DNA from: Branchiostoma floridae
Lineage: Eukaryota; Chordata; Leptocardii; Amphioxiformes; Branchiostomatidae
Length of the DNA stretch: 64,000 nt
Assembly (NCBI RefSeq): GCF_000003815.2
Contig: NC_049991.1
Location: forward strand, 15,518,202-15,582,201
Direction of reading: 5' to 3'
Below are positions 16,401 to 19,400 of the stretch, in pieces; positions within the stretch are counted from its first letter, which is position 1, and every line of letters begins with the position of its first letter. A program made the position numbers and the translations under genes. The notes under the pieces are model-generated. The model was given only the letters and a program-made list of their open reading frames with translations, did no database searches and was not told where the DNA came from.

Positions 16401-19400
16401 CTTACCCATACTTGTGGTGAGGACATCTGATATGATCACACTGTTTCAAGTGTTCCTCCAGTTCCTGAAAGAGTACACCCAAGTCGTGAATACTTTCATC
16501 AGGTGAGTAAACAAAGCTGTTTATGCTCATCCAATGTTTTTCACCTGCTGGCATTTCCTTGGAGGGTCACAGCTGGTCAACCGAAATGTTGGCAGGTGAA
16601 AAACATTGGCCAGGACACACTTATATGTACATGTACCTAAAGAAAGAAACTAAGATTGGCTTTAAAACTTAGGCTGTTTCTTGTCTGAAATATCATGATC
16701 AATACTAGTACTCTGTCCCTCTTTATTCTAACTTTCATTTGTCTGCAGATTTGATTGCTACGACTTTCATTTTGTAATATCAAAAACATGCCAGATTGCC
16801 CTGTATTGAACTTAACAATCAAAGAGCTTTTCTACCAGGCACACTTATTACAAGTAACAATCAATTGTTCATATTGTTTCGTCAAGGGACACAAGATCTA
16901 TGACAAGGAACATTTCAGGGTGAGTCAGAGGACTAAGTGAGATATGATACAAATGCTGCCTGATGACTTACCATTCTCTTCAGCGGGGGACAGTTAGGGT
17001 TGTTTGGACACGACACGGGTGCATATCCACAGGATGCCTCATGCTCCCTAGGAAATAGGACATGATATTTGTCACAAAGACAATGTAATGCTTAATTTCA
17101 TTAACTCATTTTATAGCAGCATATCAAAAAACAACATCAACTTAAAAATCAATTTTTTTTCTCAATATTTTTACAAAGAGAATGTCACAATGCATGCATC
17201 ATCCAGCTATTCCTTCTTACTTTAATAGAAAGCCAAGGAAGTGCAAGATAACATAAAGCAACTGGATATACCTTGGACATGGATTTGAGACATTTCTGGT
17301 AGTATCCACTACCTATCAAGACTAAAGTGATTGATCAAGAGCAAGATCTATAGTGCAACAGAAACCAAACACATTTTTTTAAATGAAGAAAATGTAACAG
17401 GGAATTTTTTCCTTACTTTCTGGCATTGACCCTGACCGTCATGGGGCAGCCCCTGGGGTCCAGCTCCCACTCCCCCATCTTGCCGCCGTCCGCTTGCTGG
17501 CAGCCATATTTACAGTGGATGAAGAGTTCTCCTATCTGCTCAGACACGGCTATGTTCGCTACCACCACCGATAGCTTACTGTCGTCCACAGGACACTTTT
17601 CTACAGGACACACAATTACAATACCAAATATTACATAAACATTACCACTTCTTTCAAACCCCTCATAACTTTTTTTCCTAAACATACATATCTTCTTTCT
17701 GCTCTGACACTGCTATGTTTGCTACCACCACTGACAGCTTACTGTCATCCACAGGACACTTTTCTACAGGATACGCAATTATAATACCAAATAATACATA
17801 TGTACATTACATTACTGCTTCCATTAAACCTGTACAAACTATTTTTTGGTCGCATGCTTTGGTCGCATACAAATCATGCATGCAAAAGCATGTATTAAGA
17901 TGTATACATGTATGACTACGAGTCCACATACTAATCTACATGATGGAAGGGAAGAAGGAGGGAAGGAAGACTGCAGTGTAACTATGGCACAGCCTCATTA
18001 GTCGCAAGGGTTCCCACTGGTTATTCTTTAAGGTGGGAGTTAAGGTATCGCTCAAACCTAACAACAGTGAAATTACAGTCATCTAGTTATAATAAGTACA
18101 GGTTGATAGTAATGCATAGCCATGTTGAGATAAGAACAGGGTAAAGTGTTATGGCTATTTTATTTTAGTTAAGTAACTGTTTGTGGTCTCACCATTTGTC
18201 TTCATGTTGACACACCACCTACAGAAAGTGTGCTGCATGGAAAACAAGAAATTGGACCATGAGACAATTTTAGAGTAACTGCTAGGTAAATTTGAAATTA
18301 AAGTAGCAAATACCATATCATCTTATGATGAGAATAATACTAATACTAGTAGTTTACCATTTGACTATCGAGGCTTCAAGTTAAAGAACAGGGCTTGAAA
18401 TACTAGCTGCATATGCAGTTTTGTGCAGCCAAAATTGGAGCTGTACAGTGTATATTTAATCTTAACTGTTGATGTACCAGTGCACAATATTTGTGTAAGG
18501 TTTTGCTGACATTCTACTTCATTCTATACTGTGCACACAATATTTCCTCTGTGCACCTTTTATGTTACTGTTAGGCACACCAGCGCACCTATTCCCAAAA
18601 ATTCCGAGCCCTAAGTGTAAAAATGTTGCCTACCCCACATGTTGTAATGACGGCATCTTTAAAGACCCTCTCACACAACAAGCAGAACAGCTTGGATGAT
18701 GGCGTCTCTGTAAACACCAAGGGCTCCTGTAACAGAAGACATGTCAATAATCATCTGTGGTCCCAAATATAACATGGGCATCTAATTTGATTAGCGCTGA
18801 TTATGCTCTGTAGACGTATTGATCTTTACATTATACAAGTGTCAATACCACAGCATTCGAACAACCGTACATATTGATAAAACCTAATAGTGTATCACCT
18901 AATGAGTTTCATGCACAAGGCTATTTTCTACCATGAATGACTGGTTTATTAGCGCCAAACAAGTGCGCATGTACATGTACAAATCCTTGCAGCCACACAA
19001 GGCTGAATTGGTGTAACGATACATAATATATTTGTTAAAAACTTCATTAAGACGCGTTCAACAATGATACAATATAAGGGAGTGTGCTATTTTTGAATCT
19101 GGATGATTTAAACTGTGTGTAGTTGTCCTTTGAATTGTACGTAGTTCCCTGCCAAGAACACTTCCCGGTTTCGGGGGTAACCAGACAGAGAATAGTGGAG
19201 ACTTAGACACAGACAGTGCAAATTTCAAGCAAAGACTATGGCGTCTTAGGTACAGGGAAGTACCATGATGTGTACTTACATCAGACATTTCTTCTTCATT
19301 ATCACTGTCAAATGACTGGGACTTCTGCCATGGATAGTTTGGTGAGCCCTCAGCTACTGCAATACAAGAGGGTAAGTTCTCTTGACAAGAGTATACAGAG

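Follow-up and report, generated by a model that had tools for sequence, protein, structure and literature searches.

Does a truncated upstream copy of a TRAF7 exon in the Florida lancelet, Branchiostoma floridae, serve as an alternative exon, or is it the decaying remnant of a tandem duplication? The copy lies in a window of 64,000 nt (the whole stretch of DNA analysed), and an earlier sequence-only reading of that window had judged that it looks functional. Here the copy is compared with its source exon, with other partial exon copies in the window and with simulated dead copies.

The TRAF7 gene is encoded on the minus strand from ~20218, where the start codon was judged by eye, to 8084. Exons were mapped by tblastn and spliced alignment with a human TRAF7 sequence. 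The tblastn alignment confirmed the order RING, TRAF-type zinc finger, coiled coil and WD40 repeats, with the coiled coil assigned from this alignment alone. By alignment, this is the domain order of TRAF7 (RFWD1), described in the available text of a review as a RING-zinc finger-coiled coil-WD40 ligase (PMC12801879). Pfam matches were above cut-off for zf-C3HC4_2 (7.5e-7) and WD40 (6.4e-18), and below it for zf-TRAF (9.4e-4). The exon for human residues ~266-281 was not located between 16406 and 15383 in the alignment to this human protein sequence. PDB sequence searches with TRAF7 pieces gave no TRAF7-named chain among 4 of 4 matches and the best 60 of 71. Head to head with TRAF7, at ~21430-21570 on the plus strand, a gene for eIF3 subunit d begins (Pfam eIF-3_zeta). 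TRAF7 introns also contain a perfect 101-bp tandem duplication (11960-12161) and, after exon 7, an inverted repeat (16531-16609) with 27-nt arms that are 89% complementary.

Table 1. Coordinates of the copied segments, the neighbouring TRAF7 exons and other partial exon-start copies in the window
Feature	Coordinates	Strand	Remarks
Upstream tandem copy: intron end and first 73 nt of exon	17691..17846	-	Local alignment to 17528-17676
Source segment: intron end and exon start	17528..17676	-	Alignment with 17691-17846
Copied mini-exon E6c, 76 nt	17688..17763	-	Entry phase 1, exit phase 2; acceptor ...cctgtag/AAAAG, donor TAT/gtatgt
Last 8 homologous nt, with both replacement changes	17691..17698	-	Beyond the boundary of the sequence-only reading
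Exon E5, 40 nt	18193..18232	-	Upstream; in both proposed isoforms
Canonical exon E6, 184 nt	17417..17600	-	End of the RING, the linker and the first half of zinc finger 1; spliced alignment with human TRAF7
Exon E7, 76 nt	16972..17047	-	Downstream; in both proposed isoforms
Dead TRAF7 copy of coiled-coil exon start 15383-15335	15444..15492	-	In-frame TAA and TAG
Dihydrouridine-synthase-like gene start, tandem copies	39156-39254 and 39306-39404	+	95% identical
Three tandem copies of acceptor and exon start (RELEQYTDEC...), gene without name	4320-4594	+	

Origin of the copy by tandem duplication is near certain. The duplication had been described as about 135 bp at 17696-17832; the duplication stands and its bounds are revised, with homology covering 17846-17691 against 17676-17528. 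A single 7-nt gap interrupts the aligned intron, whereas the exon part, which takes in 73 of the 184 nt of exon 6, aligns without gaps. A within-window search recovered the pair at E 1.8e-35. A DNA search with the region matched a single place in the 513-Mb, 431-contig genome, and a genome-wide protein search with the exon, scoring the best candidates only, returned two matches, both of them these copies.

Over codons 1-21 all six differences are silent (GAC/GAT, CTA/CTG, TCG/TCA, GCG/GCA, GCC/GCA and TCT/TCA). This agrees with the earlier count, whose boundary ended just before the first replacement. Of the 8 nt past codon 21, 6 agree with the exon and 2 with an alternative intron origin, and these nt are most likely still exon-derived. 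Two replacements fall here, I>K through ATA>AAA and G>E through GGA>GAA, at residues that agree with the human TRAF7 sequence used for alignment. The whole copied exon thus differs at eight positions, six silent and two replacement, and contains no stops or indels when aligned to its source. All 4 CpGs of the exon part are missing from the copy. In the duplicated intron 16 of 76 columns differ versus 6 of 65 in the exon; the intron differences comprise 13 of 51 columns plus the 7-nt gap in the distal part and 3 of 25 immediately before the acceptor. Distal intron and exon differ in divergence at Fisher P 0.024. Intron and exon had been thought to diverge at a broadly similar rate, which these counts contradict, and the greater divergence of the intron strengthens the argument for constraint.

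Protein-level constraint was assessed against a dead-copy null, in which the real exon adds silent changes only and the copy adds changes of all kinds, simulated under three mutation models. In a second null the copy starts as another allele, 4% apart. The resulting values are uncorrected for the picking of this pair from a 64-kb scan, and the intron calibration uses 51-76 columns. With the earlier boundary (six differences in 21 codons), zero replacements occurred in 0/899, 7/835 and 2/899 dead-copy trials and in 6/874, 9/844 and 14/963 trials with alleles 4% apart. With the full boundary (eight differences in 24 codons), two or fewer replacements occurred in 13/796, 25/771 and 22/877 dead-copy trials and in 28/850, 39/761 and 40/892 allelic trials. 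Overall the dead-copy P spans 0.000-0.015 if the earlier boundary is used and 0.016-0.051 if the full one is; a smaller simulation, with fewer trials per setting, was consistent with the main run. An age fixed by the intron puts P(N<=2) for a dead copy at 0.030 or 0.052.

Likelihoods computed jointly with the intron favor omega 0.25 over 1 by ratios of 14.8, 8.7, 10.4 and 5.4 in four variants for all eight differences, and by 60.9, 34.5, 38.8 and 20.4 for the first six only. At omega 0.03, with all eight differences, the ratio falls to 7.0, 2.7, 4.4 and 1.5, so moderate rather than strong constraint fits. A dN/dS test, suggested in the sequence-only reading, gives dS 0.51 versus dN 0.04 over 23 codons, alongside the P of 0.016-0.051 and the ratios of 5-15 at omega 0.25. 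No indels are found in the copied 73 nt versus ~2.5 expected at the intron-derived age (P 0.08), using the indel:SNP ratio given for the Chinese lancelet in the available text of PMC4284660. The silent bias, which that reading had called unexpected for a dead copy, persists but is weaker once the two replacements are counted. The signal of constraint is of moderate size, the earlier boundary having overstated it, and any constraint may since have ended.

Other sources of the silent bias were considered. Raising CpG mutability to 8- and 12-fold still failed to rescue the dead-copy model; the CpG mutation rate in B. floridae is only ~2x the non-CpG rate, according to the available text of PMC12862219. 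Birth from two alleles lifts the null to just 0.033-0.051. Gene conversion is unlikely because silent sites have diverged at least as much as the intron.

An acceptor, an open frame and a GTATGT donor after 17688 had been reported for the copy, and all are seen in the sequence. Its acceptor departs from that of exon 6 at the 3 of 25 bases counted above. The donor scores -0.17, and 19 of 19 other TRAF7 donors score higher (0.20 to 7.39); scores depend on the base frequencies used, and one of the 19, at 16406, borders the unlocated exon. Across 12,060 nt of this strand, 70 non-donor sites, the copy's own included, score at least as high as the copy donor. Such sites occur at ~1 per 170 nt, so a phase-correct donor-like site at the copy is no great surprise. 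Introns would measure 429 nt from E5 to the copy, 87 nt from the copy to E6, 369 nt from E6 to E7 and 640 nt from the copy to E7. No AATAAA or ATTAAA occurs in 17763-17417, and intronic polyadenylation was set aside.

Translation agrees that the exit phase of the copy suits the exon starting at 17047 and not the one starting at 17600. Splicing of the copy alone keeps the frame and gives a product 36 residues shorter, with a 21-residue peptide around the copy. Inclusion of both the copy and exon 6 leads to a stop soon past the copy, skipping of both leads to a stop, and reading through the copy into the intron meets a TAG. The copy would thus be usable only as a mutually exclusive exon, as had been proposed. 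The proposal that a short TRAF7 keeps its RING and loses the first zinc-finger region also holds on conceptual translations: the RING model matches at 7.5e-7 in the long form and 4.5e-7 in the short form, and the first zinc-finger cysteines are missing from the short form. A weak Sina_ZnF match (94-139, below cut-off) is listed for the long form only, and the later zf-TRAF match, below the Pfam cut-off in both forms, is retained in the short form.

The window holds other partial copies of exon starts. Within TRAF7, the dead copy of the coiled-coil exon start arose from the same kind of upstream duplication of acceptor plus exon start, and differs from the exon-6 copy by its in-frame TAA and TAG. 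All 3 of its changed codons alter the product, two of them to stops. Counted along mutational pathways, this copy has taken 2 silent and 3 replacement steps (dS 0.36, dN 0.11), which makes the contrast with the exon-6 copy less sharp than the stops imply. At codon level this contrast has P 0.06; a Fisher P of 0.021 was dropped because two codons carry two hits each. A dispersed short repeat (15398-15441, minus strand) sits between this dead copy and the source exon, and a 206-nt query covering it gave at least 37 further genomic matches, all within query positions 53-120.

The two remaining loci are on the plus strand. The 39156/39306 duplication, in which 39156-39254 is the copy of 39306-39404, takes in the ATG and acceptor-like sequence, with a start peptide of 19 residues, and its copies have one difference in 19 shared codons, which is silent. 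The dihydrouridine-synthase-like assignment relies on a Pfam Dus match just below cut-off (E 6.6e-4), and a PDB sequence search with the peptide gave no match. At 4320-4594 the first and third copies differ by 1 silent and 1 replacement change in 23 codons, and the middle and third by 1 silent change in 10 codons; a Pfam search with this 4.3-kb gene gave no match naming it. The copies at both loci have diverged too little from their partners to provide a test of constraint. Two weak repeat pairs, 27645/27757 and 12877/12974, were inspected and are not recognizable as exons. In this small sample, the four recognized exon-overlapping duplications (4320-4594, 15335-15492, 17528-17846 and 39156-39404) span an acceptor or apparently do so, and none spans a donor.

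Genome background was sampled at fixed positions in 20 10-kb stretches: 18 chromosome-sized contigs contributed one each, and C13, the contig that holds the window, contributed two (19 contigs, 17-35 Mb). Of the 20 stretches, 13 contained one or more short-range duplications, coding or otherwise, counted as pairs of at least 70 nt with a spacing of 60-600 nt and E <= 1e-6. Short-range duplication is ordinary here and partial copies of exons are no rarity in the window, so any single copy has a low prior probability of function.

The copy is tentatively read as a young, frame-enforced mutually exclusive exon, favored only narrowly over a decaying copy. The odds of function are close to even, with moderate constraint and unambiguous frame relations on one side, and a weak donor and a common type of event on the other. 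A functionless copy, produced by random tandem duplication, spliced never or briefly and changed mostly at silent sites by luck, with further silent changes contributed by the real exon, is a serious contender that also falls a little short of an even chance. It is consistent with the 13 of 20 stretches that carry duplications, with the three other partially copied exon starts, one of them dead, with a donor that scores under all 19 TRAF7 donors, and with replacements at both of two residues that the human sequence also has; under the corrected null such a pattern is improbable (1.6-5.1%) but within reach. Against it are the likelihood ratio of 5-15 for constraint at omega 0.25 and a copied exon free of indels and stops next to duplicated intron that does carry a 7-nt gap.

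The copied acceptor might instead compete with the real one as a poison or decoy exon, giving stop-bearing messages and cutting TRAF7 output by nonsense-mediated decay. The well-preserved acceptor, the 87-nt intron to exon 6, taken as spliceable, and the early stops of the double-inclusion and read-through forms all suit such a role, which needs no amino-acid conservation and so leaves the silent bias unexplained; it is improbable. Least probable is an assembly artefact in which two alleles were joined head to tail. Amphioxus is highly heterozygous (3.2-4.2% in sequenced species, in the available text of PMC12862219), but the silent difference of 37-40% is far above allelic divergence, only one genomic place was found, the two N runs of the window lie elsewhere (7287-7387 and 8925-9024), and the copy is truncated, with a duplication junction.

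A tandem duplication of ~160-180 bp, from the intron interior to codon 24 of exon 6, put the truncated copy upstream. Copy spacing varies by part (163, 170 and 183). At the junction, the exon start meets duplicated intron with a GTATG motif, and the product has an acceptor, 76 nt of open frame and a donor-like site whose exit phase equals that of exon 6. Under the favored reading of a mutually exclusive exon, a minority of transcripts would take the copy in place of exon 6, giving a TRAF7 with 36 residues fewer, an intact RING and a first zinc finger without its cysteine pair. This short form would have been under moderate protein-level constraint, with omega for the copy of roughly 0.1-0.5. 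In TRAFs generally, loss of zinc finger 1 would alter E2 pairing or RING dimerization, and the short form would probably act as a weaker or interfering ligase with its WD40 scaffold kept. A broader proposal is that one duplication made a ready-to-splice short exon that lancelets use as a frame-enforced switch between full TRAF7 and a RING-bearing form without zinc finger 1, by an acceptor-spanning process that repeatedly seeds trial exons genome-wide; as a whole this is unlikely.

The distal-intron distance of 0.31 corresponds to ~26 million generations, with a range of 13-49 if differences of 14-40% are assumed, at a mutation rate of 5.89e-9, as given in the available text of PMC12862219. The split of the Florida and Chinese lancelets is placed at 120 Myr in that of PMC4284660, so comparison with other lancelets may be uninformative. 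Depending on generation time, the copy may be absent from those species. Given the age of the copy, within-species data are the better test.

In the available text of PMC9741552 and PMC9013439, tandem duplicated exon substitution events and mutually exclusive exons share with this locus adjacent homologous exons and matching entry and exit phases. As a further point of comparison, including both E6c and E6 breaks the frame. Unlike those exons, E6c is truncated to the first 73 nt, borrows its donor from duplicated intron and is young; most human substitution events of this kind are ancient (PMC9741552, available text). In known pairs one homologous segment is swapped for another, whereas the putative E6c product would differ from that of E6 by a deletion. 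The available text of the TRAF7 review (PMC12801879) has 0 occurrences of "isoform" or of words starting "splice", and no short form under those words. Titles and abstract openings on TRAF7, lancelet splicing and tandem exon duplication held no mention of this exon, short of proof of absence, and "partial exon duplication" occurred 0 times among the matches listed.

If used, the pair would be very young mutually exclusive exons seen soon after their origin, and the gene that carries them encodes a signalling ligase with links to human disease. The dead copy elsewhere in TRAF7 provides a natural control for the exon-6 copy. The window suggests that in-place duplication of exon starts may be frequent in lancelets, in which case newly arising alternative exons could be counted directly.
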